Source: Daphnia pulex (Eukaryota; Arthropoda; Branchiopoda; Diplostraca; Daphniidae). Taken from it: 64,000 bases of DNA. Below, one piece after another: positions 10,429-38,361 of the stretch; within the stretch, counting starts at the first letter, position 1, and each line of letters begins with the position of its first letter. A program made the translations under genes and the position numbers. Under the pieces are notes generated by a model. The model did not search any database and was not told the DNA's origin. It was given only the letters and a program-made list of their open reading frames with translations. Location of the stretch: NCBI RefSeq assembly GCF_021134715.1, contig NC_060022.1, forward strand, positions 2,919,001-2,983,000, in the 5' to 3' direction.

Positions 10429-11948
10429 ATGGAGAATTTACTACTGAATGCTTCTGTAGCTTATCGCTCAGCAGGAAAGCCCCCACTAGTCTGGGGCTTT
10501 CCTCCCGGTGCATCCATTATCGACACAGTTCCAGAAGACATGTTGGAAATGATCCATCCCCACTGGAAGAAATTCCCTCCAGTCAATCCAATGTGGCACT
10601 ACCTATTGGTGAGTAGTAGTAATTTTCCCTTTCCAATTTGCATGATTCAAATTAATCAAACTTTTCTGTTCCAAAAAATTCAGGGTCTCATCTACATTGT
10701 TTTGGGAATCACTTCCATCACTGGTGGGTGTTACACTTATTGTTGTTGTTTCCCTATACAATTTTGAATGAAATAAAAACAAATTTGGATTTATGTTTTT
10801 GATAGGAAACTCTTTGGTTCTTCATCTGTTTATGAAGACTAAGGATTTAAGAACTCCGGCGAATATGTTTGTGGTAAATTTGGCTTTTTCCGACGTGTGC
10901 ATGATGATTACGCAATTCCCCATGTTTGTCCTCAACTGCTTCAATGGGGGAGTCTGGCTGTTTGGGCCTTTATTCTGTGAGCTTTACGCTTGCACCGGAT
11001 CAATTTTCGGTCTCTGCAGCATCTGCACCATGGCCGCCATCAGCTACGATCGCTACAACGTTATCGTCAATGGGATGAATGGAACACGAATGACATTCGG
11101 TAAGTTCTAAATAAATAAATGGATGATAATTTGCCATGTGGAAATTAACTTGATTAAAATTTGCAGGCAGAGCAGCATTGTTCATTCTCTTTTGCTGGGT
11201 TTACGCTATTGGCTGGAGCATCCCTCCCTTCGTCGGATGGGGAAAATACATTCCGGAAGGCATTTTAGATTCCTGCTCATTTGACTACCTCACGCGTGAC
11301 ACGGCGGTAAATGACCTAACAAACACAATTATGGCCTTTGTCTAGAAAACAAATTTGAAATGATTTAATTGACTTGCAGACTATTTCCTTCACTTGCTGC
11401 TTGTTTGTCTTTGACTACTGCTTCCCACTCATTATCATCGTTTATTGCTATTACCACATTGTCGGAGCCATCGTTCACCACGAAAAAGCGTTGCGTGAGC
11501 AGGCCAAAAAGATGAACGTCTCCTCGCTCCGTTCCAATTCCGACCAGACTGCCCAGAGCGCCGAGATCCGTGTCGCCAAAATCGCCATGATGAACATTTC
11601 TCTGTGGGTAGCTGCTTGGACACCTTACGCCGCCATTTGCTTGCAGGGAGCCGTCGGAAATCAGGATACGATCACGCCTTTGGTCACCATTTTACCAGCT
11701 CTGATTGCCAAAAGCGCTTCGATCTTTAATCCTATTATCTACGCCATTTCGCATCCGAAATATCGTCTGGTAGGACAATCAATAAAAATTCAAGAGAATA
11801 ATTAATATTCAAAGTTAATACGTGTTACGTTTTCCAGGCTCTGCAGAAAACGGTTCCATGGTTCTGCATTAACGAGACCGCTCCACCAGCATCATCTGGA
11901 GGAGACACGCAATCGCAGGGATCCGCCTGCACGTCTGCGACTAGCTAA
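10429..11948 (+). CDS. Long-wavelength-type arthropod opsin (opsin 2), six exons
   Basis: Second complete rhabdomeric opsin. Exons 10429-10608, 10684-10723, 10806-11099, 11167-11306, 11380-11769 and 11838-11948 give 384 residues. Exons 2 to 6 have exactly the same lengths as in opsin 1; exon 1 is 12 nt longer. It has an NAS glycosylation site near the N terminus, the ISYDRY motif, the retinal Lys at residue 329 in PALIAKSAS, and NPIIYAISHPKYR. The C-terminal tail GGDTQSQGSACTS resembles that of opsin 1 and carries many Ser and Thr residues that could be arrestin-linked phosphosites. Its exon 5 is nearly identical to that of the truncated opsin downstream, which suggests recent gene conversion or duplication. 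Confidence 0.95.
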
Positions 11949-13462: not shown

Positions 13463-13468
13463 ATATAT

Positions 13469-14018
13469 GACTACTGCTTCCCACTCATTATCATCGTTTA
13501 TTGCTATTACCACATTGTCGGAGCCATCGTTCACCACGAAAAAGCGTTGCGTGAGCAGGCCAAAAAGATGAACGTCTCCTCGCTCCGCTCCAATTCCGAC
13601 CAGACTGCCCAGAGCGCTGAGATCCGTGTCGCCAAAATCGCCATGATGAACATTTCTCTGTGGGTAGCTGCTTGGACACCTTACGCTGCCATTTGCTTGC
13701 AAGGAGCCGTCGGAAATCAGGATAAGATCACGCCTTTGGTCACCATTTTGCCAGCTCTGATTGCCAAAAGCGCGACGATCTTCAATCCTGTTGTTTACGC
13801 CATCTCACACCCGAAATATCGTCTGGTAAGTTTTAGCAAAAAAAATGTCCAGGAACAGGTTTTTTAAATGTTTGCTTTTGTAACAGGCTTTACAAAAGGC
13901 ACTTCCGTGGTTCTGCATTCATGAAAAAGAGGAAAAAGAGCCACCTCAAGATCGAAGAGAAGATTCTCAATCAATAGCAACAACTAATACAAATTCTTCT
14001 GACGTGACGTTGCCTTAA
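13469..14018 (+). pseudogene. 5'-truncated opsin (opsin 3), exons 5 and 6 only
   Basis: Coding homology begins abruptly inside exon 5 at DYCFPLIIIVYCYYH and runs to 13825. Exon 6 follows at 13887-14018 and ends in its own stop. The retained part covers helix 5 to the tail, including the retinal Lys (IAKSAT) and NPVVYAISHPKYR. Helices 1 to 4 and any start codon in opsin context are missing. Exon 5 matches opsin 2 at about 97 percent by eye, yet intron 5 and exon 6 (tail EKEEKEPPQDRREDSQS) are clearly different. The preserved frame and splice sites suggest a young truncation, or a gene whose front lies elsewhere in the genome or was lost from this assembly. A working receptor cannot be made from this fragment. 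Confidence 0.85.
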
Positions 14019-15438: not shown

Positions 15439-15889
15439 TTAGCGGCCAATTTTGTCGATCATTTCGGAGTAATCTGGATCCTGGTCCCCCATAAGCAAGA
15501 CTTTGAGACAAGCCTTGAAGAAAGGAGTTGTAAAACATTCCAACCTGGATATACACCAAAACACAACTATAAGATTAATTTAATTTTGCGAGTTGGGGTC
15601 AAAAACTAATTTACCTGCAAAGTGTGTGAAACTCGGGTGAGCGATAGAGACTGGAGCAATCATGGCAAATGCGGTTCAGCCGATTAAAAATGCTTTTGTC
15701 GTAAAGCCCATTGCAAGAGGAGTGGTGATCGCTTGATAGAGCAGACATGGCCGATGTTGGATAACAGGGAAGAATTGCAAGCAAAACCACAAGTACAGTG
15801 GTTAGGCCCAAAAGAGTTCGAATGGAGCAGGAACTGTGTGATTGGCGTCCAGAGTCCATGACTATCTTCGTGTTACTGAAGCGTGTCAT
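15439..15889 (-). CDS. CHH/ion-transport-peptide family neuropeptide precursor
   Basis: Secreted neurohormone of the crustacean hyperglycemic hormone superfamily. Exons 15889-15615 and 15544-15439 join in frame. A hydrophobic signal core (GLTTVLVVLLAILP) is followed by the mature peptide. Its six cysteines fall at the family spacing exactly: gaps of 16, 3, 13, 4 and 9 residues. The segment SCNGLYDKSIFNRLNRIC resembles insect ion transport peptide and lacks the extra Gly of type II hormones. The C terminus reads DKIGR before the stop, so trimming of the Arg and amidation through Gly would leave an Ile-amide. No dibasic site separates signal and hormone, so there is no CHH-precursor-related peptide, as in ion transport peptides. 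The start is uncertain: Met at 15889 and Met at 15859 are in frame, and an acceptor at about 15895 suggests an upstream exon could supply the real start. Confidence 0.88.
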
Positions 15890-16538
15890 TGGATCTGTGA
15901 AAAAAGAAATGGTCCTACTACTTATAGAGCGACTCAAAATAGTCGAACAGGAGAAAATTTGCAAGGTTCCTCTTTTCTCCCTTTTTTATGACTTTGCATT
16001 GTTACAAATACTTTTTTTTAGAAAGGGAGAAAAGGCTCTGAGTATAACGTTACGCAGGGTTTTGTTGCTAATTTTGGACCCTTTTCCAATTGATATTCTC
16101 AGCCACGTAGACCGAACCTTTCTTTTTCTTTTTTAAATTGAGCCAAATGGTTGGTTGGTCAGACAGAGTTCACAGAGTTGTGTCTGCTTTTACATGGTAC
16201 ACGCGATACCGCCTTCATTTGTTTTTGTTTTTCGCATGGCTTTTCAGCAGATTTTCATTTAGTTCCTAATTGTCGTCTGTTGTTAAGTGACCTCGTGATC
16301 TTCAGAGCAATCCAACTCGTGTCGGGACAGTAAGTAACGACAATCAAGATTCTTCCATTTATATTAAGATTTCACTGTACCTCGTAAACAAATCGGTAAT
16401 GATATGCTGCTAAAATTGTGTATTTTCACAAATGATTAAGGCTACAGTTTTAACATTGTAAGAAGACAAAAAAAAACCTCGGAAGAACGTCAAATCAGAT
16501 TAGAAATTTAGTGTAGCGTAAAGTATTTCGTCTGGGAA

Positions 16539-16985
16539 TTAATGAGACTTGCGAAAAGCCACGTCACAAGCAATCAAACCATCTTTCCAGGCTTTTCTTG
16601 CCTCAGTGGAGAAGGATTGACCGAGTTCTTCTTCCATGACCGTAAACATGACCTCACCAAATAATTTAAGATCATCAGGCTTGACAGCTTTGAAGACTGG
16701 TGAATTTAGGTGGGGGCATTGTTTAGGGTTCTTGCCTAGGTTCTCCATGTAGGCATTCAAACCGGCCAGGCAAGTGTAGACTTGGTTGAGGAAATGACTG
16801 TTGGTTGGCAGGTCAGCCAAATCGACATCGGCGAAGGCAGCGAACTGCTTCTGGGCCTCGGGTTTCAGTTTGAAATAACGAATAAAGGCTTTGGGGGCGA
16901 TGTTTCCATTCTTCTTGGCGATTCTCCAAGTTCCTTGGACCAAAGTGCGATCAGCCTCCTTCATGGCGTATTCACGGGTCTGAGT
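16539..16985 (-). other. Globin-domain exon (exon 58)
   Basis: This exon encodes residues 854 to 1001, beginning TQTREYAMKEADRTLVQ after an acceptor at 16986-16988. The whole globin fold, helices A to H, sits in this single exon, with no intron at the usual B12.2 or G7.0 globin positions. The C terminus (STEARKAWKDGLIACDVAF) is a typical helix H. Upstream peptide sequence continues in frame through the splice site, so it is not a stand-alone globin, although an internal Met at 16964 could start a shorter product. Confidence 0.9.
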
Positions 16986-19900
16986 CTGAAGATGAAAGAC
17001 ATTTGTTTACGAGATGAAAGGACAGAATGTGTTTAAAGTTAAGACACCCTACCTTGGAACTGTGACCACATTTGTGGGGGCATTTGGTTCCATGTTGACT
17101 GTGAGGGCACTTAGATCCTTGTTTACTGTATGGGCATTTTGATCCATGACCATGGCTGTAAGGACAATTGGATCCAAGCTTGAGAGATGATTTCTGTACA
17201 ATAATTATTGATTCAATAAGACATGTTCAATTGATTTGATAGCAAAATATGTTTACTTGAATTCCGAATGGGCATCCTTGTCCATTAGCAGATTTCTTCA
17301 GATGGGGCAGCAGCAGATGAGTAAATAGATTATTGTTCCAACTGTAATTGTTTCTGTTTTATAACATTTAAGAAAAGTAAACTGTACCTTGAAGCCATGA
17401 GGGCAACCACTAGCTGAAGCATCGGCGGTCTGTAAATGAATAAGAAAAAATTGTTAATTATTTTTCTCTTCTCATTTTAAATCAGGAATGAGGAATTTAC
17501 CGTGAATCCATAAGGACATTTACTTCCGGCAACCATCTGTTTCTGTTAAAATAGAAAACAAGTAAGTAACACTTAAGAATGATTCTTGATTCACAAACAA
17601 GTTTAATATAATTAACTTACTTTGATTCCAAAGGGACAACCGTGTCCAGAACCGGAAGACTGAAAGAATCGAAACGATTGTGACGCTGTTATTTTGAGAC
17701 GAACAAAATGGTCCTGCAACTAATTACTTACCACGAAGCCGAGGGGACACTTGCCATCGGTCGATTGGGTGAGCTAAACATAAGAAAAAGTATTTCATAC
17801 AATTAGTGCCACATCTATACAAGTTCACTGAAGAATTCAAATTGACTTACCGAAAATCCAAATGGGCATTTCGAGCCTTCAACTAGTCCTCGCTGAAATT
17901 TGCAACAGGTTAATTGTAACTATAACCTAACAGGATATAATATATTTTCTTAGCAACTATTAGTACCTTGATACCGAAGGGACATCCACCAGCATTTTTC
18001 TGTTAGAATAAAATAAAATTGGGTTAGGTTGGGGTTGCATGTTATGAGTAGTGGTAACACCAAAAATTACCTTGAATCCGTAAGGGCAACCGGAAGCTGC
18101 TGCTCCCTCCTTCTGTTAGATTACGATGAATGCAAAGTTATTTGGGTTAGTTCTCTTTGAAAGCTGACTATTTCAATTAAACTTACTGTGTATCCGTAAG
18201 GGCATAGAGTTCCTTCTACCGAACGTTTCTGTTTCATCGTAAAGGATATCATCGATTAATTTCCATAGTCATCACATCATGTGAAATACTTTTCTATTCT
18301 TTTTGCTATGGTCATTAAACTGTACCTTGAGTCCAAGAGGGCATCCCTTTCCAGAAGTAGGTCCCTAAACGTAAAAAATAATCCGCAAGAGTTAGATAAA
18401 GTCAAAAACGAAAAATTAAATTGAAGTTTACCTCAAATCCAAGTGGGCATTTTCCATCAGTAGCAGCCTCTCTCTGTTACAACGAAAACGCCAATAAATT
18501 TTTGTTACTTAAAATTTTATTACGAAAAGGCTTGTTCGCTGTTTAAAAAAATATTCTCACCGTGTAACCGAAGGGGCACGTAGATCCTTCCACCAATCCT
18601 CGCTGAAGTCGGGTGAACGGTAAATTGATTAACATTTATAACGCGAATATTAATCATCCTAAAATGTTACCTTTAAACCAAGAGGGCAGCCAGAGTCAGA
18701 TTTCTGTAAAAATGTAGATATGTGCATGTAGATCTTTTACAACTCTGAAGTAAAATGAAATATTTGGTTTACCTTGAAGTTCAGGGGACAACCGGGCTTA
18801 ATCTCAGATGCCTGCGCAAAATAATTCGTCATTTTTTGGTCGTAACATATTTACCATCAAATGAAGCGCAAAGTTGGTTAAATTGAAGCGATACTCACGG
18901 AGTAGCCGAATGGGCAACGGGTGGAATCCGATGAAGATTGCTGTAAGTTAGAAATTAGAAAAATGTTGTCAAATTTTGTCGGTTATTGATCGCAAAAATT
19001 AAAGATCTTTACCTTGAATCCGAATGGGCAAGGATCGCCAGAGCCAGTCTTCTGTTAGTTTCAAAAAAATACTATGTTAATGGAATTTCCCTTCGAATTA
19101 AAAAGAAAATCAACTAAACGAAATATAAATTACATTGAATCCATGTGGGCAGTTTCCGTCATTGAATCCGACCTTCTGAATAAGACAATTAAGATAATTA
19201 AATAATTCTACGACAAAAAAATAATTCTAATTTTGTATTCTTATAGACTAACCGGGTATCCGTAGGGGCATCTGCTCTTGGCCTTGTAGTCGGCTTTCAT
19301 CTACTCACAAAAAACATATAAGGTAAGTGATTTGAAGATCTTTTTTTTAGTTCCTAAATGTATAATTTCAATCGCAATATTTACCGAGTGGTAAGGACAT
19401 TTGTGCGCAGTTGCTTGTGTTTTCTAGTATCGAAAAATAATTTTAAATCAAGTAATTGAATTTTAATAAGTGCCATTCATTGCTCCTCCTTTACTTACGC
19501 TGAAACCATAAGGGCAGCCAGATGCAGATTTCTATTAAAATTCAAAAGAATGTTAAGTTTTAGATTCTTTTTTCTAGTTATAGTATGGTTTGTTGAGGAT
19601 TTTGTACCTTAAAGCCGTGGGGGCATCCGTTAGCTGCAGCATCACTCTGCTATTGAAAACATAATGCGAACGTTAAAATATGAATACTTGATTCAATTAA
19701 ATTATATTCATACGCCAAATCCGTAGGGGCACTTGCTTCCTGCAACTAGTTGTTTCTATTTAAAAAAAAGAATAGCATTTTGTTAGTATTTACACTAAGT
19801 AATCGTTCTAATTGATGTTTTTAATAATGCAATTTACCTTCAGTCCGAGTGGGCAGCCATTACCAGAACCAGTCGACTATAATTTAGTAAAAGAAATGTA

Positions 19901-22900
19901 TTAAAAATTGATGCGTACGGTAGGAATGTTAAGTGCGTTGGGTACCTTGTATCCAAATGGACACTTTCCGTCATTAGCTCCTTCGAACTGTAAAAGTTTT
20001 TAAAGTTAGGGAGATTAATAATTGGAAAAAAATGACTATTAAAATTGCAGATTTTCTGCAGATTTTATACAGAATTTTAACTTACAGTGCCGCCGTAAGG
20101 GCATTTGGATCCAGCGACTAATCCTTTCTGTATTAATTGAGAATTAAGATAATGTAATTTTCCGTTGGAAGTCAATGATGGAAAGATAATACGGGTACCT
20201 TGAGTCCCAATGGACATCCGGAGACACCTTTCTTGAAGTTGTGAGGGCATCCTGGTGCAGCCGCATCTTCTCTCTAAACAAAACAGAGATACTTAGATTT
20301 AGACTTTGTCCTTGTGCAATCATGTGAAATCAGCTTACAGTGTATCCGAAGGGGCATAGAGATCCTTCAACCAATTGTCGCTATACAGAAGTACCGGTAC
20401 AAAGTTTGTTAACAGCAGTCATTACGAAAAAAATGAACTAAATTGGGGAATGGCAATTGTACCTTAAAGCCAATAGGGCAACCCTTTCCAGTCGAGACTC
20501 CCTAAAAAAACAAAAAGAAAACATTAACATCTGGCTATTACTTGAGGGGAAATTCGAACTTGAAAGGAAATAAAAACTTACAGAAAATCCAGCGGGGCAC
20601 TTTCCGTCGCCAATTGATTCTTTCTGCAATTTTAATTAATTTTTAAATGAAGCTCTAAAATTACTAATCATTTGTCAAAAATACGTTGTATCCGAATGGG
20701 CACTTTGATCCTTCGACGAGTCCTTTCTGCAAAATTAAAAGTAAACGGGATTAGAGTTGGGCTAAACGGACTAACCAAGAAATAAAAGCTCGATCGTACC
20801 TTCACTCCTAGTGGGCATCCCGTGTCAGTATTCTGTTGATTTCAATTAAAAGTTATAAAGAGAATGCAAGCGAACAGTTTTTGTGACAAATACGTTACCT
20901 TGAAGCCGTAAGGACAGCCAGACTTGGAAGCGGAGGCTTTCTAAAAATGCGAAAAATGGAATTTGTAAAGGCGGAATTTTGCGGATTTTTTTTTTCTAAC
21001 TTACGTCATATCCGAATGGGCATTTGGTTCCAGCCACAGATGATTGCTATTTATGATACAACAAATTTTAGAAATTAATATCATTAAGTCTAGATACAAG
21101 TGCCTTTAAGGATATTTGCTCGGATATTAGTTCTGGCAGAATAGTTACCGCAAAACCCCATGGGCATCCAGCACTTGAACCAGTTGCCTGAAAATAGAAA
21201 ATAACTATGGTTACCACTTGCGAGCTGATGAAGCATTAATCAAAATTGATTTACTTTGAATCCATGTGGGCATTGTCCGTCATTGAATCCGGATTTCTGT
21301 TGACAATAATAAGTGAAAACCACGACAAATGATATCTTTAAAAACAAAATCATACCGGATATCCGTACGGACAGCTGCTTTTAGTCCTGTATCCAGCTTT
21401 TTTCTACTCGAGCAAAAATGATAAATTAACGTAATGCAAATTCAACGCCAGCCGAACTCGGAATACAAAATGACTTTTCCGGATTGTTCTTACCTCGTAA
21501 CCATATGGGCATTTGTTAGAAGCTGTAGCGGGTTTCTGGGTAGGTACCATCAAAGAGAAAAAATGTAACTGAACCCGCTCTTATCGATTTTGAATTAAGG
21601 TGATTTTTCTTGTAACTCTACACTTACATTGAAGCCATAGGGACAGCCAGAAGCCGATTTCTGTTTAAACGCAGAAATGTTTTAGAAAATGTGTAAAAGA
21701 GTGTTAAAGAATAAAAATTAAAATCATACCTTAAATCCATGTGGGCAACCATGGGCCGCCATGGCAGCTCCCTAATAGATGCGACGAAACATTAAAATCT
21801 AAAAAAATTATAAATAACAAAGCACTGAAAGTCCATACATCGAATCCGTAAGGGCATTTGCTTCCTGCAACTAGTTGTTTCTGCGTGCAACAAACAAAAC
21901 ATAGTTAGAGTCAATTCCGAAAATCTTTGTCAACCAAGTAAAAATATATTACCTTCAGTCCAAGAGGGCATCCATTTCCGGATCCAGATGACTAGTAAAT
22001 GAATAAATAATGGATTAAAAAATTTTGTAAGCAATATTTACGGATCGGTTTGTTTACCTTGTATCCGAAAGGGCATTTACCGTCGTTAGCCGATTCAAAC
22101 TTAAATATAAGTTGATTAAGTTAAAAAATGATCAGAGGAAGTAATTTAATGCAAATACTGTGTTGATAACTTACAGTTCCACCATACGGGCATTTAGAAC
22201 CAGCTACTAATCCTTTCTGTAATAACAAATGACAAAAGTTTGATTTCCTCTGTTTTGTAACTTTGGCGCGTTTTTAAAATAACATCTGTATTTGATCTCT
22301 TAGGATATTGGTACCTTCAGTCCCAATGGACATCCGGAAGCACCTTTCTTGAAATTGTGAGGACAGCCTGGAGCAGCCGCATCTTCACTCTGAAACACAA
22401 GGTAAAAAAAAAATCTGATTTAGATCTTTTCTGTAAGGCAAGTTATTTCACTAGATGAACTTACGGTGTATCCGAAGGGGCATAGAGATCCTTCAACCAA
22501 TTGTCGCTACAAAAGTACAAAGTATGTTAATAACCGCTAACTAAAATGAATTGCTACAAGCGCGTTTTTAGTAATTCAATTCTACCTTGAAGCCAATAGG
22601 GCAACCCTTTCCAGTTGAAACTCCCTAAAATAATAGATTACAATTTTGAAATGAAACACTTATGACACAGGATTTAGATGAATATTATTTAAAGCCAACG
22701 CACGGAAAATCCAGCTGGGCACTTCCCGTCACCGATAGATTCTTTCTGCAAACAGGAAAATAATTCACATAAAAAAACCGAGCGCTTTAATTGAAAATAA
22801 TTTCTGAAACTTACCTTGTATCCGAATGGGCATTTAGATCCTTCAACCAATCCTCTCTACAAAACGAGAATTACGAAAATAACATTGTGAAAATACATTT

Positions 22901-23907
22901 TCCAAGTCTACAACTTACCTTAACGCCAAGTGGGCATCCTTTGTCGGAATTCTATTTTTAATTAAAATAAAAAAAAAGACAATCATTATTATTTGAAATT
23001 ATGTTTTAGTTTGTTTACAAAGAGTTTCACAAGATAGGTGTTATACCTTAAAGCCATAAGGACAGCCAGATTTGGAAGCGAAGGCGTTCTAAAATTGACA
23101 TGCAAAAAATTACGTTAATTAAATTTCAATTTTTCAAGTAGGAAGTCGAGCTATTAATGTTATACAACTTATTTTCAACTTACGTCATATCCGAATGGAC
23201 ATTTGGTTCCAGCGACAGACGATTGCTATTTTGAAATGTCAGTTGGTTATATCACATCAGAAAAGGATTTTAAGACCCAATTTAATTTTGCAAACAGACC
23301 TTATTAAATCCCCAGGGGCATCCACTTCCGGGGCTAGTATTCTATGAAACAGAATCAATCAATATTTTGAAATGTGACTTGAGTATGAAACACTGAACTT
23401 ACTTTGAATCCATGAGGACACTGTCCATCATTGAATCCAGATTTCTAAAGTTTAAATGTATGAAAATTAATTATTATTCTATAAAACGTCTAGATCACAG
23501 TTAAATAAATGCACTTACCGGATATCCGTAAGGGCATTTGCTTTGGGTTCTATAACCAGCGGATTTCTTAAAATAAAACAAATAATACAAATAAAAACTG
23601 GTATGTCGCAATTGATTACATAATAATGGGTTAACATACCGTATATCCGTAAGGGCACCCTGTTCCTTTACCAGTTAAGTCGATGGCGCTCTGCAATATT
23701 GAAAAGGGAAAATTAGCTTATTAATTTTTACAACAAATGGGAGCATTCAAAATTCGAAACATTTAATCAAAGCAGAAAGGAAGACAGAAAAAGTTATGAT
23801 CTCACATGAGGGTTCTTCCCAGCAGATCGTTTGCTGTAAGGGCAATTGTGAGCGCTTACTGCTGCCAGGCAGACAGCAATCAAAATGAGAATCTTAGTGA
23901 TACTCAT
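16539..23907 (-). CDS. Secreted 58-exon Cys-Pro-repeat protein with C-terminal globin domain
   Basis: Predicted product of 1001 residues, 57 introns, every intron phase 0 and every coding exon a multiple of three. Exon 1 (23907-23806) encodes a signal peptide (MSITKILILIAVCLAAVSA) and a first motif, NCPYS. Exon 2 is 23690-23640. Exons 3 to 56 are short units of 11 to 16 residues (two of 25), each ending in a pattern like SKCPFGYK or GCPHGFK. Exon 57 (17193-17053) packs four motifs, CPYS, CPYS, CPHS and CPHK, in a Gly, Ser and His rich stretch. Exon 58 (16985-16539) encodes one whole globin domain. That domain shows the helix A Trp (TLVQGTWRIAKK), a CD-region Phe (QFAAF), a probable Gln at the distal E7 site (FLNQV), and a probable proximal F8 His inside KQCPHL. 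There are about 62 Cys-Pro motifs outside the globin. Splice sites are canonical GT-AG throughout. Daphnia blood haemoglobins are two-domain globins, so this is a different protein. Function is unknown; binding of many haems or metal ions is a hypothesis. Confidence 0.9.
17257..19300 (-). repeat. Microexon super-unit C (exons 39-56)
   Basis: Eighteen exons, 18 repeats: 19300-19253, 19175-19134, 19051-19013, 18940-18899, 18811-18773, 18703-18671, 18602-18561, 18473-18432, 18364-18326, 18228-18187, 18112-18071, 17999-17967, 17892-17851, 17773-17732, 17659-17621, 17542-17501, 17429-17388, 17295-17257. It is more diverged from A and B than they are from each other. Where A and B have the fused 25-residue exon, C has separate 14- and 11-residue exons (KEGAAASGCPYGFK, KNAGGCPFGIK). 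C therefore shows either the ancestral state before an exact intron loss, or an intron gain. Confidence 0.88.
19385..21403 (-). repeat. Microexon super-unit B (exons 21-38)
   Basis: Eighteen exons, 19 repeats: 21403-21356, 21296-21255, 21187-21149, 21046-21005, 20940-20899, 20832-20800, 20726-20685, 20623-20582, 20501-20463, 20380-20339, 20273-20199, 20127-20086, 19987-19946, 19876-19838, 19755-19714, 19649-19608, 19531-19499, 19423-19385. It is closest to unit A and shares with it the fused 25-residue exon (APGCPHNFKKGVSGCPLGLK). Several peptides are identical between A and B, among them KESIGDGKCPAGFS, GVSTGKGCPIGFK and RQLVEGSLCPFGYT. Confidence 0.88.
21494..23566 (-). repeat. Microexon super-unit A (exons 3-20)
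   Basis: Eighteen exons encoding 19 Cys-Pro repeats. In transcript order: 23566-23519, 23444-23403, 23341-23300, 23225-23184, 23088-23047, 22951-22919, 22856-22815, 22745-22704, 22624-22586, 22506-22465, 22389-22315, 22216-22175, 22099-22058, 21991-21953, 21880-21839, 21771-21730, 21660-21628, 21535-21494. Lengths in residues run 16,14,14,14,14,11 then 14,14,13,14,25 then 14,14,13,14,14,11 and a last 14. The 25-residue exon holds two repeats with no intron between them. Order and sequence match unit B exon for exon (KSGFNDGQCPHGFK is identical in both). Confidence 0.88.
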
Positions 23908-24007: not shown

Positions 24008-24015
24008 TTTATATA
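24008..24015 (-). promoter_or_regulatory. TATA box of the Cys-Pro-repeat globin gene
   Basis: On the minus strand TATATAAA starts 32 bp before an arthropod-type initiator TCAGA whose A is at 23983. This places the start of transcription about 76 bp before the start codon. Position and spacing are what a focused arthropod promoter should show. Confidence 0.6.
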
Positions 24016-24019
24016 CCCT

Positions 24020-25588
24020 GTCGTCCGTCGTCCTTGTCACTCATGAAATTCCATATCAACCAATCTAGATGGCCGGTCAATGTTTCCAACCACCCAATAT
24101 CCTGTTGATTTCATCATAAGCCAGCAGCTCCTTCGGATGGACTTGGTTTCTCCGTCGCATCAGTCTAAAAACAGATAAACTCTGGGTTTACGCCTTCGTT
24201 TTTTTTGTGTGTGGCCTCGTTTTGATTCCAAGATTTCACTAGACAAACGCTGTCGAAAGATGCAAGTCGTCTTATGATTCATTCGCCATGCTAGCTTTAT
24301 GTAAAAAAAATTCGACGAGCAAATAGACTCACAGTCAATGTCTATTACCCAAAAATGATTAAGAAAACTGGCTACCGCAAATATTGGTTACATAATTATA
24401 TTTGTTACATAATTTATAAAATCTGAACTAATATTTGTGCGTGTGAGACTGTAAGACACTTCGTGTAAACGCTATAAATATTTCTAGTATATGTGGAAAT
24501 TACGTGTTTAGGATTCAGTTCAATAAAGTTAAATAGAATGAGAAGATTTGGTGTATTCTGGTGTATTCGATGGGAAACAAGCGTAACATTTTGTTCCCTG
24601 TAAAAACATGCTGTGTCACACAGAAAAGGCAACGCTTCAACAGAAATTTATCAACAAAATGTTATCTCGCTTCTAGCCAGTCAACAGTTTCGACAGAACA
24701 GCTGTTGCTGCCTTTGACCTATACATGAAACATGAGCAATTTTGAACTTTCGAGAAACCTTTTGCTTCGGCCTTAAGACAAAGAAATATCGACAAAGAAT
24801 ATGATTAAATGTGATTATTTAAAGCACTTCATGATGAGTCGTGTTCCGATTTGTTTCAAATTCGTTTAATAATTACTGGATCCGGCCGGCATCATATTTG
24901 TACTTCATGAAAGATTTAACTCTAAATAGAACAAATCCTAACTCTTCCAATTTATTATTTGGGGTCGCTAGATAATAAAAATAAGCTTTTCTCAAATCAC
25001 TCAAACTTAACGATTCAGCAATTAAACGCTTTTTTTTCTTCAAATTCATACTGAAGTTTCGGCGTCATTTCGCTTTTTTCGGCTACGATATCTTTGTCTT
25101 GCAGCATCTTGCTCAACGAAAATGAATATGCTGCGTATCTTTCAAAAATGAATAAAGGTCACGCAGATAAGATGAGTTTATGTGTACGACGCACCAGACA
25201 ACTTTTGGGTAATTTTATTCACAGCTGCAGATGAGGTCAAAAATTATGAAGTTATGTAACAAAAATTTTAAAAAAGAATTAAAAAAAAAATTATTATCCT
25301 CGATTTAGTCCTGGCATTCACATTTATTAGCGTATCCAGGGTGGAGTAGGATCTGTTGATCTTTCTCAATTTTGTCTAGTCGTTTGCCACAAGGGAAGAT
25401 GGTAATTCCTTTCCAATGAGAAATTCCAAGGACTTGAACCGATACGAATCCCAATCATTTGCACCTGAGTCGCAATCGCTATCCAACATACCTTGGTTGC
25501 ACATTATTACGGCAGCGAAAGAATAAAATATGAAATCGATTTTCAAAAGTAAATCAAGCAACGTCAATCCGAAATCAAATAAATAAAA
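24020..25588. other. Intergenic DNA between the globin gene and the inverted duplication
   Basis: AT-rich, with no supported gene. A single ACGTG core near 24494 is too common a word to call a hypoxia element. The outer breakpoint of the left arm is at 25588/25589. Confidence 0.5.
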
Positions 25589-27424
25589 GTTCTCTCAGAC
25601 CACGGAATGGCATCAGTTTCGTTTGAAAAGAACGTTGTGAAACTTGACGAAATGGTCAAAGATATTGGTAGCTCGGCGTACTGTTTTGATTGCGCAGAAG
25701 GCTTAACTCCGACACTCCTTCCGGTCAACGATTCACAGAGTAATTAAAATATATATTTTGCATGCTGCTAATGAGATTATATTGTGATTTTGTCCAGGTG
25801 CAAGAGATAGAATCGCCTCGAAGATGGAGTGCCGCAACGAGGACGTGCGCATCTACGACAAGTGGGATTTTCCTCGCCGTCATCACTATGCAGACAGTCG
25901 GAGAATATCCAGCCTCCTCTTCGATCTCGGCATTCATTGGAGAGCGATAGTTGGCACGGAAGATTACTTGCCGGGAGGTCACGGATGGGACAACATTTAC
26001 AGCGACATGGCAGCCATATTCGTGGCTCAGGGACCATCATTTCGTCGTGACGGCTCGACAGTGGATCCATTCTACAATATCGAATTGTACAATTTAATGT
26101 GCTTACTGACTGATGTTAGTCCAGCCCCCAATAACGGTACGTGGGGTGCTTTGCATCATTTATTGGCCAAAAAGCCATCAGAGCTGCCTGTCAACGATAT
26201 CGTTGCTACTTACATTCTTGATTATCCGCTGGATAGTCACGGGCAGCGAACGCAGTACATGGATCACCAGAAACGTAGACGAGTTTGCGATCTCCTCTCG
26301 GGTAATAATGATCCTCGCCAAGTAAGTTTTTCCCTCCTTTCAAGTGTAATTTTGAACAGATAACTTAAATGATGGATCATCAATAGAATTTAGGATTTAA
26401 CCTGACGGAATCAGCTGCGAAGCAATTGGTAGAACTGCACGCTCCTTGGGGTTTGCCAGGTTCCAACAAGACAGGCGTGAAAGTGCTTATCAGTTCTGAT
26501 TTCATCATCGGTAAGTTTTTAAATTTAAAACAAAATAGAAACTAGGTAAATGCATATTTATGTATAGGTTTTAACGTCCAAGACGGGATACCATCTTGGG
26601 TATCCTATACCCTTTCGAATAGTACCAGACTATCAAATGATTCACTTACCCCATCGTGGCGAACTGATCCACGTCTTCGAGTTTCTGACGTTTCTATTTG
26701 TGATCGTCTGAAAGAAAATCCACAATCGTCTTCATTGCTTTTGGCTCCGCTCTTTTTCCCTAGTACGACAACACTATTTTTGATTTTTAAGTATGAAATG
26801 ATTATTTAAAATATTTACAAAGGGCTTAGCAGTTCGTTACGGCATCTGACGGATGCGTGGGTAGAAACCAACGCTATCGAAATCTCTGAAGCTTTCGAAA
26901 AGTATTGGGAATACATTGAAGCCACGATTGTACAGCTTTCGGCCGACCTTCCTGGACGATTGAACGTCTTAGCCGGGCCAGTGAGGAACTCACCCAGTCC
27001 AGCAATTTTCCTCGTCGTTTCGTACTGTCCCGATCCAATTGAGTTAGGTTGCTCCGAAGATCAATTGGACGTCCAATCTTTCATGTTTCCGACTCACCTT
27101 CACTACAGCCGAGACTGTTTATCGACGGATCTTTTTTCACGCAGTCACTTAACAACTGTGCGTGACGTAGAGAGGGCTTCCGGACTCCATCTTTTCCAAT
27201 CGCTTTCCAGCGAAGCTAAGGTTCAATTGTTGAGGTGCACTCCTTTGGCTTCTAGTTTATTAGTTGACCCTCGTCCCATTGAAAAAAAATTTTTTACGGA
27301 TAAAAATTCCGCATCAGATGAAGCTACTACTCTAACCTTTTTTTCTCGATGGGTCTTTAGTATGTTGTCACTAATTGTAAGTGCAATTTGGAATAATTTC
27401 AACGCTGATGTTAAATTTCCTTAA
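25589..27424 (+). pseudogene. 5'-truncated ENPP gene copy (part of exon 5 through exon 9)
   Basis: Mirror copy of the complete gene at 42348-45321. Exon pieces are 25589-25739, 25798-26321, 26387-26510, 26568-26762 and 26823-27424. Frames and splice sites are kept, and the protein differs from the complete copy at very few sites. It starts inside exon 5 just at the LSDHGM motif. The signal peptide, the catalytic Thr segment and the first zinc ligands are therefore absent, and no promoter is visible. It cannot encode a working phosphodiesterase. The near-identity points to a recent origin or to homogenisation between the arms. Confidence 0.9.
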
Positions 27425-28971
27425 AGATTTAACTGTTTTCTTCATTAATGCTTATAAGTCAGTAATATCTAGAAGCCACTTTTTTGGATTTAGATTGATT
27501 CTGGCTTTTCTTGTATGAAGAAATAAATCCTTTATAGGTAAGATAACACAACAAGCGAATAAGCTTGAATTTACATGGATTTTTACATTTACTGCTTCTT
27601 GGTTTAATAATCGCTGGCTTCTAATATACACAGATAAGCGAAAAGTGCGCTAAGTGATCATTGTTAATTTTTTCAGTTGCGATTGTATGTCTTGTTTATA
27701 CGACTTTTTGCTCCACCCTGCTTGGTTTAATGTTTTATCCCTCTTTGCTAGAGATTTTAAATTTTTAATGTTACATTTCTTTTTATGGTCGACTGTGTTT
27801 TTTTTTTTTCTGTTTGGAGCTTACCAATCTTAATACAATGCTCACGCAAAAAAAATTAATGAGTCTTCTGACCTGACCTCTTCTGATGGGTGTATGAATT
27901 GTCTATCTGCAAGGTACCCGAAGTAATAAGACAATAAATCAAGGTTTTACCGTTAATTCGGTTCTTATCCTGTAACAATTTCTTCAATTTTTGTTATTTT
28001 CGCTGATTTTCTACAGTCCAGCAGGTAAAACTGTAAAAGGGCAACAACGCTTCTTAGTTCTCACGGAAATTCGTCTGCAGTGCAAAAGTGAAAAGTTGTT
28101 GATGAAATGTAAGATTACTAAGCTTGGTCTTTCCGTTTCCTACATGTTTACAACTTTACAAGCCTTCGAAAGTGACATTAGCTCTTTGCAATTGCCAATT
28201 GCAGAGATCCCAGATGCGAAAATGGCCAAAACTGAAAATGGCAATGCTGCGCCTTTTACTTTAAACATGGCTGCTGCCAGTGCTGCCTGCTGACAGCCTG
28301 ACATTCAACGAGATCGTTATGGTGGTATTAAAATGTACCGGTACTGCGCCATTTTCCATTATGAAAGTTAAGTTAAAAATATTTTGTTTCGTTACGATAT
28401 TGTATGGTTGCTGAACGTAAAATTTTTACATGTTTATTCACAGGAAATCTAGCCTGTAATTTCAAATCTGCCAAATCACCTTATCAGTTGTCAGTTGTCA
28501 CGTCATTCACGTGACCTGAAACCATCCTGAAACTCATGTCGTTGCTTGCTACTGGTATCGGTTGTATGTACAACCCATGCAAAAACACTTGACAGCAAAA
28601 GTAAGTGTGTGTGTTTGATTATGTCAACCGATTTCCATTCAAATTTAGTTAATTGTTGACAGAGCAGATCTAGATCCTGTCTTGTTGTAGAATCGATTGT
28701 GTTGCATCTTCAATGGATATGTGGTTTACGATTCAATTTCCATGGGGTTGAACTAGACTTACTAAATTGTTAGTTGGGAAGTCTTGCCAAGTGTAGATTC
28801 TATGTAAAATGTATGATATCAGAATGGCAAAATGAGCACAAATTCACAAATAAAGTATCCGTTTAGTTTTGAGGGACTGTTTAGTTCAACTTTATGCCCT
28901 TCATTATATTACATCCAATGAGACATTTCCTTCTCAATATTAATTTAATATTTTTTCAATTGTTTTAACAG
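27425..28971. other. Arm DNA after the ENPP copy
   Basis: Mostly 3' flank and AT-rich sequence. An open frame at 27991-28293 (mirror 41479-41781) has no recognisable domain. Mirror of 40801-42347. Confidence 0.45.
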
Positions 28972-30032
28972 CATCTGAGTATGAGCTGCAGCCAGTTGGT
29001 GAAGGTGTACACAAACCCAAAGTAAGAGTGCTAAATTCATTTTTCAATAAATTTAATATTATTATTTTGAAGTCTTGCAGGGGACACTGACTGAATTGAT
29101 TGACCCGGCAAATGGCGGTTCTTTGCATTATTTCCATCCGACTACTTGTCCAGTCGTTTCAACTGAAGAATTTTTGCAGCGGATGGTGGAATATACGCGT
29201 AGAATATAATTACAAAGTATTAGGTCTGGAAGAAGAAAAGGTGGAAAGAACAGAACCCACTTCCAAAGAAGAAGAAACGAAATGAGCTTTTCTCGGTTGG
29301 CCTGTGCCGTTTCCCCTGACCAAACTTCTTTGATTCTTCTCTATGCGCACCTCTGCTTGGATCTTGACGTCCAGCTAGAAGATGCCGTTCGACTCCTTCA
29401 GCAAGTAACCCTATTCATTTAAATTTTGTGTGATCAAATAGAAAATTTCGTTTTGGTTGATGCGCAGGTTGAAACGCTGCACGATCATCGACTAATGGAA
29501 AAATGCATTCAGAAATTAAACCAGAAAATGTCACTAGTCACAAAAAAAGTAAGATTTTCATCTTTCCTGCAAATGTACGATTATTAATTAAACTTTATTC
29601 TTATTGTTTATTTATTTTATTGTTTGCTCATCAGAAGGTTATCCACCTTCGATCATCATTCGTTAAATACGCGGTGGGACTTGTTATGATATACCAACAT
29701 AGCGCTTGTAAGCCACCGTTACTGTGTGTAATCGAATCCTGGACACACCATGATCCACCGTAGGAGAATATTTTGTAACGTCCTTTTCGACGATGGGGAA
29801 TTCTTCCTTCGTTGCTGAAGGTAATCGTAATGAATTTCGAATCACCGAATTCCTACTCAACTTATTGGAATTTTTTTTTACAGATAATTTAAAACTCAAC
29901 ACTGATGTGTCGTTCGTCAGCAGCCATCCGAATATCGGGCTTTCTTTTGAACGTTTCAACGGCCGCCGATACTCCAATGCTGAGATGATCTTCCCAGAGG
30001 ATGAAGCCTTTGCTCTTTCCCTGGTCGGATAA
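28972..30032 (+). other. Unidentified exon-like set in the left arm
   Basis: Successive open segments bounded by good splice sites: 28972-29021 (ends GEGVHKPK), 29081 onward (GTLTELIDPANGGSLHYF to RMVEYTRR), about 29284-29404 (LACAVSPDQTSLILLYAH), about 29468-29548 (VETLHDHRLMEKCIQKLNQK), and a last segment from about 29882 to the stop at 30032 (LSFERFNGRRYSNAEMIF to FALSLVG). The composition looks coding and the ending is clean. I could not join all segments without interruption: the stretch 29700-29820 reads through an in-frame TGA in its best frame. I do not recognise the family. It may be the 3' part of a duplicated gene, possibly decayed. Confidence 0.4.
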
Positions 30033-31410
30033 AATTATACGTATTATCGTATCGTATTATGTAATTGTCTGCCTTTTACGTACATTAGCTGCTAAATAGT
30101 TTCGTCAAATTTTACGAGAAATCAAAAAATTATTTAGGCCATTCAGGTTGTTTTTCTTAAATTCAACCAATGTACAACTGTATGTAAAATTGTAAATCAG
30201 GTTCTTGTTTCACCTTTTCATTCATCATTTTGTAGCTTAAATCTTGTGTTATTTTGCAAACAATTTTAACTTTCACTTTACTTAAAAATTCCAGACAGAA
30301 CTCCCTCCTACCTCTGGGTATCAATCTGGGTCGCCTCTGACCCCAATTAAGAAGTAAAGGCCCCCTGTGTAAGAAAGGTAGGTAAAGGAAGGAATCCAAC
30401 ATAGAAGACTTTAAACGTAAACAGAAATCTAAAAGATTTATTTTGTAACAACTTACAAGTGATTTTTGTGCTACAAAATAGCACTTATAAACCAATAAAA
30501 TCAGACAAGGAAGAGCATTCACAAAGACAAATAAGTGGAAGAACACAACTAATTAAATGAGACAACACCCGTTATTTTATTAGGTGACATGTTGCTTTCT
30601 CACCCTCGATAATAACAGCGTCATTATTTTTTGACGCAGAAAAATTTGTTGATCTAGTTAGTAGTTGTCAATGAAATCACTCCTGTATCATGTAAGATCA
30701 GGTTCAGGTGCCTTAATCTTACTGCATGGATGACATTGGAAACAGGAGATTTGACATGGCAGTCAAATTAACAAACAACACATTGAATTGTGGCACCACA
30801 GACAGTAACAGCTTCAAGCACACCTTTCACCATCTCCATTAACAGCCTGAGCATCAATGGCCATTGAAACCTACAGAGAAAGATTCATCACAAGGCAAAG
30901 TGCAGAATAATAGAAATAAAGTGAAAAGTTAAAAAAAGTGACACGAAAAGGTAGCAGTATACGATATTCCGTCAAGAATCTGGAATCACTAACAGATGCC
31001 ATAGACAAGGCACAGATTCAGAAGAATCAAGAATGTCAACTGTGAACTGTCAATAAGCTGCCTTCTCGGCTTCTCCTCATTAAACCTTGGGGATTTCGTC
31101 TGTTGTGATGTTGATGTGTGATGCTGCAGTGCTTTTTGGTGTTTTTGGTGAAGACGAGATGTAAATTTGGAGAGGAGAATATTACGTGAGTATCAAAGTT
31201 ATTTGCCTTCGTTTGTTAGTTCTTTCTTTCAACTGTCAACGAGCTAGAGCGGACATTGTTTTCATGTATTTATTTTTTCTGACGCTAGACGGTTAGCCTT
31301 TGATCATTTTCCACTCAGTTTAGTTACGTTTACTTTGCACATCTCTGGAGAAATTTCTCGCTGCTACTACAAAGAAATTTTGGGTGATAACTGTCAGTTT
31401 CTCTTTCAGC
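30033..31410. other. Arm DNA without a supported gene
   Basis: A 127-residue open frame on the minus strand at 30163-30546 (mirror 39226-39609) has no domain I recognise and no splice context. The rest is AT-rich. Confidence 0.45.
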
Positions 31411-31799
31411 AACAAAGCTCACTTGTTAGATTTGTAATAATGGGGTTTTTTTTCTACTTCCGGTTTTCTCATTTCTGCCAGTAGTTTAGTAAATATTCAT
31501 CTGACACACAAAAGAACCACATATTCGTGATCCTCGTCAAATTTGTGGTAAAGTTCATGTTCTTTTTTGTACGTACGCGTACTTCCGGTTTCGAGAATTA
31601 TCCTGAACTATAGTTCAGGAAAAATCTCAATTTTGATCAAATTTTCGATTTCGTTTAAATTACACCTAATCGACCCCAAATTTCATGGAGATCACGAATA
31701 TTTGGTTTATTTTGTCGGGAGCTCAATGGTTAAGGCGCTATCGCTTACTTCCGGTATACTTCCGGAATATTTGCACAAAACTAGCAAGTGAGCTTTGTT
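31411..31799. mobile_element. Small inverted-repeat element (MITE-like), left copy
   Basis: AACAAAGCTCACTTG at 31411 returns as its reverse complement ending at 31799. Imperfect pairing continues about 10 bp further inward. The interior carries several CTTCCGG words and the palindrome CCTGAACTATAGTTCAGG. It has no coding capacity and I found no convincing target-site duplication, so the superfamily is unknown. Confidence 0.55.
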
Positions 31800-33207
31800 T
31801 TCTGGACAGTTCTAAAGATTGATTGCTAGGTTTTATCAAACAAATATGGACTTTTCAAGTTTTTTGAGTATCTTAAGACCATCTGCAAATACTGAGTTTT
31901 GAGACGTGTCAAATAGATGGCGTGTTGATTTTGTCAATAGAATGGCGGTTTGTTGTCAAAAGTTAAGCTATCCTTTCTTCAAAAATTAACAATGAATTCA
32001 TTGGTAAATTCGAGTTATTTCGTCTCTAACTTGTCGGTGATGTGTTCTATTCCGTGTATATGTTGGATAACCTTAATGTTTCCCATCAACTTTCAGGAGG
32101 AAACGTGAAAGGGTCGTGGCCGTCGTGCAGCTTACCGTCAACTATTTGTTCAAAATCATTGTATTCTACTGAATGTGCCATCGAAATGCTACAGGTAATA
32201 ACCAACACAAGCTTTATCCATTTCATGTATTGCTGAAACATATATTCTTCTCGTCTTTTATTAGGAGTCATAATTGTATTGGACTTGCTAGATCACCAAC
32301 CCCAGCATAGACCAATCTCTCATTTCATCTTCTCGAGAGAAGATTGGATAACTGATCTGTGGTTTCATGTGTAAGTTCACTTATCATGTCACTGAACTTT
32401 TTTTTCCATTGCAGTCTAACATGTATTTAAAGTATAGATCTCTACTTACGTCTATGGTCTATCTGATTTTTAAGAGGCGCTTTTGAGTGTTTACTGATAA
32501 TTGTTTATTCTTTTAGATCATAGACGTCAAGCACATTGATGACACAAATTATAAACAAGCTGACTTATTTTTCTTTTTTTATTTACAGGTTCTAAACTCC
32601 AGCTTTCTAAATTTGCATGGCAGACTTAATGATAAGTCATGTCCTTTCAAGAAAGTCAACAAGGTCCCTGTTTACTAACCTGTTGGCTGCTACCCTTGAA
32701 TCTCCCTTTTTACTTTCTTAAGCGGACATCTTTATTTGAGGTATTGCTTTCTGTCGCTACAATCTTGTTTGAATATTATTGTCATCCAAATAAATGTTCA
32801 TTCTGCTTACAGAGTAATCCTTCGCTACTTGTCATGGACTTCATCCACTGGTGAAAACCGACGAGAGAATGCTGTAATCCAAGACTGATAAATTGTGTAG
32901 TTAGATTCAATTACAAGTGCATTTCTGGGCTCCCTTCTTTTCTGTGGCCCCGTTTCCCTAACTAACCACTAACCAACGCCCGCCGGTGGTCACTCACCCG
33001 CTGTGAAACCAGGAGGAGGGGAGGGCTCTGGTCGAACGGGGACTTGGAAGGCGCATGATCCGATGAAAACTTTTGGAGGGTCATGAGTCTAACCTGGAAG
33101 CCTAGTATGACTACATCTCCCCGGAAAAACTTGCCTCGTACTTCTCTCTTCTTCTCGGTCCAGATACTATCTCTGGGGGCCGTAGACAAAACCTACAATT
33201 GCATGTG
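31800..33207. other. Arm DNA between the MITE-like and fold-back elements
   Basis: No gene supported. Small frames at 32639-32854 and 32962-33189 (and their mirrors) lack recognisable motifs. A 61-residue minus-strand frame at 32086-32271 has a hydrophobic run but no further support. Confidence 0.45.
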
Positions 33208-33640
33208 CGAGTTAAAACAAAGCAACCCACTACCCAATGAAACAAAAAGCCATGGTTTATTTTTTGCGGAAATCTGCATCAGTCAAGTTACAAATTTTTC
33301 TAATTCAACAACTCGCGTAGAATTTTGCATCTAGTCTATTAGTGCGAATCGCGATTCCATGTGTTTGGTAGTTTAGAAAATGGTTGTTTAAAAAACAAAC
33401 AATGGGGTGTTCTGGGTAGCCAAAAAAACTCACCATTGTTTGTTTTTTAAACAACCATCTTCTTAACTACCAAACACATAGGATCGCTATTTGCACCAGT
33501 AGACTAGATGCAAAATTCGACAGAAGTTGTTGAGTTTGAAAAATTTGTAACTTGACTGACGCAGATTTCCGCAAAACTATACCATCGCTTTTTGTCTCAT
33601 TGCCGCAGCGGTGGTGGCGGGTTGCGTTTAAACTCGTACA
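33208..33640. mobile_element. Fold-back (palindromic) element at the centre boundary
   Basis: Two arms of about 190 bp read as imperfect reverse complements around a short core near 33412-33424. Matching landmarks include AAGTTACAAATTTTT, GAATTTTGCATCTAGTCTA, and GGTTGTTTAAAAAACAAAC. Ends share GCAACCC and CGAGTTTAAAC-like sequence. The outer half of the left arm (to 33327) belongs to the large duplication; from 33328 inward the sequence is no longer mirrored at 36444. A second copy of much of the element lies inverted at 35120-35415. Confidence 0.7.
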
Positions 33641-36437: not shown

Positions 36438-37972
36438 GTGCTGCCAAAATTCTACGCGAGTTGTTGAATTAGAAAAATTTGTAACTTGACTGATGCAGAT
36501 TTCCGCAAAAAATAAACCATGGCTTTTTGTTTCATTGGGTAGTGGGTTGCTTTGTTTTAACTCGCACATGCAATTGTAGGTTTTGTCTACGGCCCCCAGA
36601 GATAGTATCTGGACCGAGAAGAAGAGAGAAGTACGAGGCAAGTTTTTCCGGGGAGATGTAGTCATACTAGGCTTCCAGGTTAGACTCATGACCCTCCAAA
36701 AGTTTTCATCGGATCATGCGCCTTCCAAGTCCCCGTTCGACCAGAGCCCTCCCCTCCTCCTGGTTTCACAGCGGGTGAGTGACCACCGGCGGGCGTTGGT
36801 TAGTGGTTAGTTAGGGAAACGGGGCCACAGAAAAGAAGGGAGCCCAGAAATGCACTTGTAATTGAATCTAACTACACAATTTATCAGTCTTGGATTACAG
36901 CATTCTCTCGTCGGTTTTCACCAGTGGATGAAGTCCATGACAAGTAGCGAAGGATTACTCTGTAAGCAGAATGAACATTTATTTGGATGACAATAATATT
37001 CAAACAAGATTGTAGCGACAGAAAGCAATACCTCAAATAAAGATGTCCGCTTAAGAAAGTAAAAAGGGAGATTCAAGGGTAGCAGCCAACAGGTTAGTAA
37101 ACAGGGACCTTGTTGACTTTCTTGAAAGGACATGACTTATCATTAAGTCTGCCATGCAAATTTAGAAAGCTGGAGTTCAGAACCTGTAAATAAAAAAAGA
37201 AAAATAAGTCAGCTTGTTTATAATTTGTGTCATCAATGTGCTTGACGTCTATGATCTAAAAGAATAAACAATTATCAGTAAACACTCAAAAGCGCCTCTT
37301 AAAAATCAGATAGACCATAGACGTAAGTAGAGATCTATACTTTAAATACATGTTAGACTGCAATGGAAAAAAAAGTTCAGTGACATGATAAGTGAACTTA
37401 CACATGAAACCACAGATCAGTTATCCAATCTTCTCTCGAGAAGATGAAATGAGAGATTGGTCTATGCTGGGGTTGGTGATCTAGCAAGTCCAATACAATT
37501 ATGACTCCTAATAAAAGACGAGAAGAATATATGTTTCAGCAATACATGAAATGGATAAAGCTTGTGTTGGTTATTACCTGTAGCATTTCGATGGCACATT
37601 CAGTAGAATACAATGATTTTGAACAAATAGTTGACGGTAAGCTGCACGACGGCCACGACCCTTTCACGTTTCCTCCTGAAAGTTGATGGGAAACATTAAG
37701 GTTATCCAACATATACACGGAATAGAACACATCACCGACAAGTTAGAGACGAAATAACTCGAATTTACCAATGAATTCATTGTTAATTTTTGAAGAAAGG
37801 ATAGCTTAACTTTTGACAACAAACCGCCATTCTATTGACAAAATCAACACGCCATCTATTTGACACGTCTCAAAACTCAGTATTTGCAGATGGTCTTAAG
37901 ATACTCAAAAAACTTGAAAAGTCCATATTTGTTTGATAAAACCTAGCAATCAATCTTTAGAACTGTCCAGAA

Positions 37973-38361
37973 AACAAAGCTCACTTGCTAGTTTTGTGCA
38001 AATATTCCGGAAGTATACCGGAAGTAAGCGATAGCGCCTTAACCATTGAGCTCCCGAAAAAATAAACCAAATATTCGTGATCTCCATGAAATTTGGGGTC
38101 GATTAGGTGTAATTTAAACGAAATCGAAAATTTGATCAAAATTGAGATTTTTCCTGAACTATAGTTCAGGATAATTCTCGAAACCGGAAGTACGCGTACG
38201 TACAAAAAAGAACATGAACTTTACCACAAATTTGACGAGGATCACGAATATGTGGTTCTTTTGTGTGTCAGATGAATATTTACTAAACTACTGGCAGAAA
38301 TGAGAAAACCGGAAGTAGAAAAAAAACCCCATTATTACAAATCTAACAAGTGAGCTTTGTT
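37973..38361. mobile_element. Small inverted-repeat element (MITE-like), right copy
   Basis: Mirror of 31411-31799, carried by the arm duplication rather than inserted independently. Confidence 0.55.

Follow-up and report, generated by a model that had tools for sequence, protein, structure and literature searches.

A Daphnia pulex gene joins a microexon-encoded array of Cys-Pro repeats to a globin domain

A stretch of 64,000 nucleotides (nt) of the Daphnia pulex genome (assembly GCF_021134715.1, contig NC_060022.1, positions 2,919,001 to 2,983,000; hereafter the window, whose own numbering we use) encodes on its minus strand, from 23907 to 16539, what is almost certainly a single gene that joins an array of Cys-Pro (CP) microexons to a globin. 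An earlier, sequence-only reading of this DNA had proposed 58 exons at these coordinates and an uninterrupted product of 1001 residues, and exon-by-exon translation reproduces this model exactly, with 57 introns and a coding sequence of 3006 nt that is free of internal stop codons. We base the fusion on the open phase-0 chain, on purifying selection on the repeats, on a second protein, P0002, in which the same parts follow in the same order, and on a paralogue, L041, with a single CP unit. The same evidence supports the earlier proposal that array and globin form one secreted protein, for which the signal peptide was recognized by eye. The gene thus seems to encode a genuine kind of globin protein, apparently not yet described, in which a repeat chain made of microexons is set on a globin.

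All 57 introns are bounded by GT and AG, lie in phase 0 and measure 59–115 nt (median 74). Their lengths are spread evenly modulo 3 (19, 18 and 20 introns) and just one of the 57 permits in-frame read-through, so that splicing is needed to obtain the open frame. The resulting chain consists of a signal-like start, 62 CP motifs and one C-terminal globin that holds the 63rd. One of the motifs before the globin falls in exon 1 and four in exon 57, within which a 27-nt tandem array spans 17073–17148. As had been claimed, nearly every repeat between them is one exon: 53 of the 55 exons from 2 to 56 are 33–51 nt long and carry one CP apiece, and the remaining two (exons 13 and 31, 75 nt) carry two each. 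All 56 internal exons are symmetrical, running from phase 0 to phase 0.

The repeat unit is mostly CP[aromatic/aliphatic]G, with a single cysteine about once per 14 residues and an A-B-C triplet register. The proposed formula, 11–16 residues each ending in CP[FYLH]G, was nearly right: glycine stands at +3 in 53 of 63 CP motifs, but tryptophan, alanine and isoleucine also follow the CP (Y 20, F 15, H 11, L 11, W 2, A 2, I 2). One of F/Y/L/I/V/W comes next in 50 of the 62 repeats, and K, R or N precedes the CP in 27. The commonest cysteine spacing in the repeat part is 14, the closest pair being CPHKC in exon 57. The predicted mature protein (102 kDa, isoelectric point 9.3) contains 66 cysteines, that is, the total of 67 minus Cys 13 of the probable signal peptide.

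Such an array is not expected by chance. When we searched the window for a signature consisting of AG, 11–19 open codons ending in CP plus four codons, and GT, we found 60 instances inside the region on the minus strand, two elsewhere on that strand and none on the plus strand, compared with a mean of 0.11 and a maximum of two in 100 dinucleotide shuffles of the region; this signature was derived from the array itself, and the count includes alternative AG acceptors. A stronger test is selection. Exon similarity peaks at a lag of 18 exons (mean 0.68; every other lag between 1 and 35 gives 0.27–0.38), and the array falls into three 18-exon blocks. Blocks 1 and 2 were compared over 16 of their 18 exon pairs, two pairs of unequal length being left out; they differ by 84 synonymous and 28 non-synonymous changes (proportions per site pS 0.525 and pN 0.053), corresponding to a ratio of non-synonymous to synonymous substitution (dN/dS) of 0.061 at a dS of 0.90. 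The repeats are thus under purifying selection. Paired introns of these blocks are 70% identical, close to the 67% seen between unpaired introns; shuffled sequences reach 63%. In block 3, pairing by eye suggests that the units which exons 13 and 31 hold in twos are split between exons 49 and 50. Within blocks, similarity is also raised at lags 3 and 6, in a three-exon register (permutation p 0.013 in block 1 and 0.0015 in block 3).

The same architecture recurs in a public protein collection, in which the full-length window protein retrieved P0001 and P0001 in turn retrieved P0002. The latter comprises 479 residues, encoded on a 1556-nt contig (‘lgn’ source), and shows a signal-like start followed by 19 CP repeats, one additional GCVLG and then a globin that is 60% identical to that of the window over 143 residues. 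An open frame of 479 codons on 1556 nt suggests that this contig is a spliced transcript. P0002 shares the triplet register (lag-3 permutation p < 0.0005, reached by none of 2000 permutations), and individual units match closely, for instance KKSVSGTKCPYGYS to KRSVEGTLCPYGYT and KGMVAGSKCPYGIK to KGLVAGSKCPYGGT. Its best match in the D. pulex genome is the window globin, at only 60%, and it is therefore not another copy in this assembly. Judged by its predicted sequence, P0002 is distinct from the window protein yet has its parts arranged in the same way, and it corroborates the fusion. P0001 (568 residues, from a 46.8-kb JGI contig) contains many CP[FY]GY repeats and matches the window protein at 1.5e-20, perhaps partly through composition; it lacks a globin, shows by eye no signal peptide, and belongs to no family that Pfam detects at E up to 1. 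NCBIfam yielded no family for P0001, P0002 or exon 58, and a search of viral contigs found no relative. When the P0002 globin was used as a protein query, P0002 itself was the sole match among 78 candidates; as scoring in the full-length search was limited to the 8000 candidates with most words in common, these results do not establish that the architecture is rare.

Within the D. pulex genome (133 Mb, 13 contigs), all 18 listed matches to a repeat query fall in this locus, as do nine of the ten places that fit a DNA pattern with at most one mismatch. This is weak evidence of uniqueness, since a P0002 query listed globin exons only and not this array, so that diverged, intron-broken arrays would be missed. 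The globin query gave 38 matches, the best outside the gene being C9:2640657-2640848 (58%). It belongs to L041 (C9:2640451-2640998), which reads MLVHY..ECPRGYK, a signal-like start leading to one CP unit that ends at a phase-0 intron, and continues with a globin that has two further introns. L041 thus has one CP unit before its globin, compared with 62 in the window gene, and from its sequence this simpler build is plausibly the ancestral state. No array of CP[FYLHWIA][GS] was found in six regions around paralogous globins, where one lone peptide fits; this pattern misses the CPRG of L041. More distant are L030, L043 and L044, which we call didomain-type for the two globin matches that each shows about 0.7 kb apart; they are 37–39% identical to the window globin over 139–140 columns, and no CP array was found in the L043 and L044 regions. 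The sequence-only reading had spoken of an undescribed ‘system’, which goes beyond the evidence: we see one gene with a small family. Two didomain-type loci, C10:2319491-2319979 on the plus and C10:2340162-2340650 on the minus strand, have identical scores and lie about 20 kb apart in opposite orientation, probably reflecting a recent inverted duplication.

The single globin of the 1001-residue chain, the other half of the earlier claim of about 62 repeats and one globin, is recognized by Pfam as PF00042 (4.9e-10, residues 885–988), and both this profile match and the globin fold place it in the globin superfamily. The phenylalanine at CD1, typical of hemoglobins, is present in all eight aligned rows. 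The proximal histidine at F8, which is expected of an O2-carrying hemoglobin, is absent from all five members of the clade to which the window globin belongs, and cysteines occur in its surroundings (Table 1); position E11 was counted as E7 + 4, and F8 lies in a gapped segment, where the exact alignment column is uncertain. The F segment contains three prolines in 11 residues, and the predicted models show no helix of at least four residues there. Exon 58 lacks both globin introns of L041, though the 57 upstream introns remain, which could reflect cDNA-mediated 3′ intron loss.

Table 1. Features of the Cys-Pro array–globin gene, in window coordinates
Feature	Position	Strand	Basis or remark
TATATAA, about 100 nt before the ATG; possible TATA box	24009..24015	-	read in the sequence
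Probable signal peptide, residues 1–19 (MSITKILILIAVCLAAVSA), start of exon 1	23851..23907	-	by eye; presumed cleavage after AVSA
Exon 1 (102 nt) with NCPYS, the first of the CP motifs	23806..23907	-	translation
Exon 2, CP repeat GCPYGYT	23640..23690	-	translation
Block 1: exons 3–20, 18 exons, 19 CP motifs	21494..23566	-	translation, exon similarity at lag 18
Block 2: exons 21–38, 18 exons, 19 CP motifs; duplicate of block 1	19385..21403	-	translation, dN/dS
Block 3: exons 39–56, 18 exons, 18 CP motifs; more diverged copy	17257..19300	-	exons 49–56 paired by eye
Exon 57, 141 nt, with four CP motifs in close succession and several His; joins globin	17053..17193	-	translation
Exon 58, entire globin domain plus stop, no internal intron	16539..16985	-	translation
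Cys 925, aligned at E11	16770..16772	-	Cys in 5/5 clade members; Ile in 3/3 didomain-type domains
Cys-Pro in globin F region, NPKQCPHL	16713..16718	-	CP in 5/5 clade members, 0/3 didomain-type domains
Val 954, aligned with proximal His F8	16683..16685	-	clade V, V, Y, Y, Y; didomain-type H in 3/3

How does this protein relate to known globins? An account of Daphnia hemoglobins describes, in the part available, HbB with a substituted E7 and valine at F8, and HbC, E, F and K with tyrosine at F8 (PMC7457136). The window globin, with Gln at E7 and Val at F8, has this combination and, judged by that description, is probably D. pulex HbB; L041, L042_A and L042_B have tyrosine at F8. The likeness to these HbL ‘monodomain’ globins lies in the globin domain: the paper treats them as monodomain proteins, and the available main text does not use ‘signal peptide’, ‘repeat’ or words beginning with ‘cys’ (PMC7457136). 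The extracellular two-domain hemoglobins of the same genome have a related globin domain, but differ in carrying two of them, with F8 histidine in all three domains compared and an F-region CP in none. Androglobin and other chimeric globins likewise place a globin within a much larger chain. Androglobin, according to the portion seen of the same source, has a calpain domain, and its globin is rearranged (PMC7457136); no calpain domain was found in the window protein at Pfam E up to 1. The claim that no such protein had been described thus stands in part: within the open-access literature as covered, partly as excerpts and mostly without subscription journals, we recognized no description of a CP array joined to a globin and no record that contradicts the claim, but the globin domain itself has probably been catalogued as HbB. 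A further study, as far as its available text goes, leaves out globin domains in multidomain proteins (PMC7771090). What is added to the known globins is an architecture, seen in two proteins, that combines a repeat chain built from microexons with a globin lacking the canonical proximal ligand.

Several other resemblances were considered and rejected. The antistasin family (PF02822) scores 28.9 with the window protein, above the cut-off of 21.2, but the best stretch covers only profile positions 10–22 of 26 and there is one cysteine per unit; the score of P0002, 15.8, is below the cut-off. Antistasin repeats have six cysteines each, according to the accessible part of a mussel byssus paper, and the CPYGY found there lies within the foot protein Pvfp-5-2, which is EGF-like by eye and unrelated (PMC6508894). 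The ‘microexon’ in a paper on D. pulex predator responses refers, in the text available, only to a TopHat option (PMC4514973). Comparing a 201-residue repeat stretch with solved structures gave three RecA rows (E 0.0006 to 0.004); these are composed of 30-residue segments, each worth about 3 bits, within concatenated RecA chains, and we regard them as chance matches.

As for function, we tentatively favor, on the grounds of sequence, an extracellular polyvalent binder that would use CP thiolates, most likely to bind heme. The gene would give rise to one secreted, basic protein of about 102 kDa, presumably flexible along its CP chain and ending in the altered globin. It probably originated from a secreted globin with one CP exon, through serial duplication of symmetrical phase-0 microexons and then of an 18-exon block. 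The CP cysteines would provide many weak thiolate sites, as in the chemistry of CP heme-regulatory motifs, and the protein might bind or buffer heme, the rebuilt globin adding one more and perhaps thiolate-ligated heme site whose pocket would lie beside the CP segment and the E11 cysteine. We favor thiolate ligation of heme because a CP occurs in each of exons 2–56 while the next residue varies, because the array is attached to a globin, and because a CP is found where the proximal histidine has been lost. CP-type heme-regulatory motifs are usually few per protein. They share with the window repeats the Cys-Pro core, usually with a neighboring hydrophobic or aromatic residue, here linked to a heme-protein fold; the window protein differs in carrying 62 in tandem, many of them in neutral 9-mers, with heme binding that is putative. 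CP motifs are the best explored heme-regulatory motifs, and the part of the study available to us reports dissociation constants of 0.40 to 6.36 µM for cysteine-based peptides (PMC6356037).

A number of observations weigh against heme binding. The 62 CP 9-mers are net positive in just 23 cases (29 neutral, 10 negative), and only 10 of the 62 repeats match the strict motif [RKN]CP[FKLV]; as duplicates, the repeats are also not independent samples. Secreted cysteines are often oxidized to disulfides, which would block thiolate binding. Both structural models stem from two-sequence alignments, with low confidence in the F region (residues 93–100 below 50 in the predicted local distance difference test, pLDDT), so that the absent F helix is possibly an artefact, and the loss of the F8 histidine may be equally compatible with a heme-free globin. 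Finally, in the excerpts available of the motif study, a CP flanked by alanines binds no heme and negative net charge is inhibitory (PMC6356037). The fullest form of this idea seems improbable to us: a new class of heme protein, a ‘heme sponge’ outside the cell with dozens of ferric hemes bound to tandem CP-thiolate microexon modules, and with a globin cap in which a Cys-Pro thiolate loop, together with the cysteine at E11, would replace the proximal histidine and make it a natural thiolate-ligated globin. If the repeats do bind heme, a genus used as a laboratory model would possess a polyvalent extracellular heme carrier and possibly a naturally occurring thiolate globin. Even without heme binding, the gene illustrates clearly how serial duplication of phase-0 microexons can build a protein, and its one-unit paralogue L041 persists in the same genome.

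Nearly as likely as a heme binder, though itself doubtful, is a structural matrix protein, in which the cysteines would form disulfides within and between chains to produce an insoluble coat, gel or adhesive (of the egg, brood pouch, cuticle or gut lining), and the globin would be a heme-free cap or anchor. The signal-like start, the Gly/Ser/Lys-rich composition and a cysteine about every 14 residues, present in all 55 of exons 2–56, would suit such a role. Likewise, residues 1–338 of the P0002 model, the repeat part, stay below a pLDDT of 50 and show no confident structure, which the two-sequence alignment may itself cause. The globin lacks the F8 histidine, and its clade-conserved E11 and F-region cysteines could pair. 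However, the unit of Cys, Pro, a mostly hydrophobic residue and Gly is more specific than cross-linking cysteines require, and cross-linking through tyrosine is unlikely, as tyrosine is swapped with F, L and H. A dN/dS of 0.06, together with the triplet register held in common with P0002, is tight for an amorphous matrix, and the CP inside the globin is left unexplained.

It is unlikely that the protein is a buffer of thiols or soft metals, whose 62 thiols would bind Cu, Zn, Cd or sulfide or serve as a sacrificial extracellular antioxidant. The many cysteines of the mature chain and the histidines beside the CP motifs of exon 57 fit this idea, but the repeat cysteines are isolated, without CXC or CXXC clusters, and metal binding has no need for the proline and the hydrophobic residue that follow the cysteine.

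Still somewhat less probable, although compatible with the other readings, is a secreted protein diversified by splicing, in which symmetrical exons would be skipped in frame to yield length variants, as in the micro-exon genes (MEGs) of schistosomes. In the accessible text on these genes, MEGs have secreted products and consist mostly of very small symmetrical exons, and VAL-6 has a MEG-like part, its array belonging to a VAL gene (PMC4350168). The window gene has the same structure, with its exons of 33–51 nt and its symmetrical phases, secretion being judged by eye, and P0002 carries 19 repeats, roughly a third of the 62 found here. However, schistosomes belong to another phylum and their arrays adjoin another domain; the strong purifying selection on the window repeats is the opposite of fast antigenic change, and P0002 may just be a shorter gene. 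The likeness is thus one of gene structure, and we claim no kinship. Lastly, it is very improbable that two genes or an illusion of annotation are involved, with the globin exon on a separate transcript or the array in decay: an in-frame methionine in exon 58 (AMKEAD) could start a plain globin, but in P0002 a single open frame runs through the same parts, L041 keeps the order of signal-like start, CP unit and globin, exons 57 and 58 are only 67 nt apart, and the dN/dS is that of a constrained sequence.

The window contains further features besides this gene. An inverted repeat (25583–33327 and 36445–44189) has arms of 7745 nt that are 100% complementary and separated by 3117 nt; it is very recent, gene-converted or an assembly artefact. 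Repeats at 1990–2923, 10802–11711 and 13468–13767 are 78%, 82% and 98% identical to reference copies, and the open reading frames within them look by eye like rhodopsin-type receptors, forming a small tandem opsin-like family. Directly downstream of the globin, an open reading frame on the minus strand (15611–15964) resembles, by eye, a precursor of crustacean hyperglycemic or ion-transport hormone.

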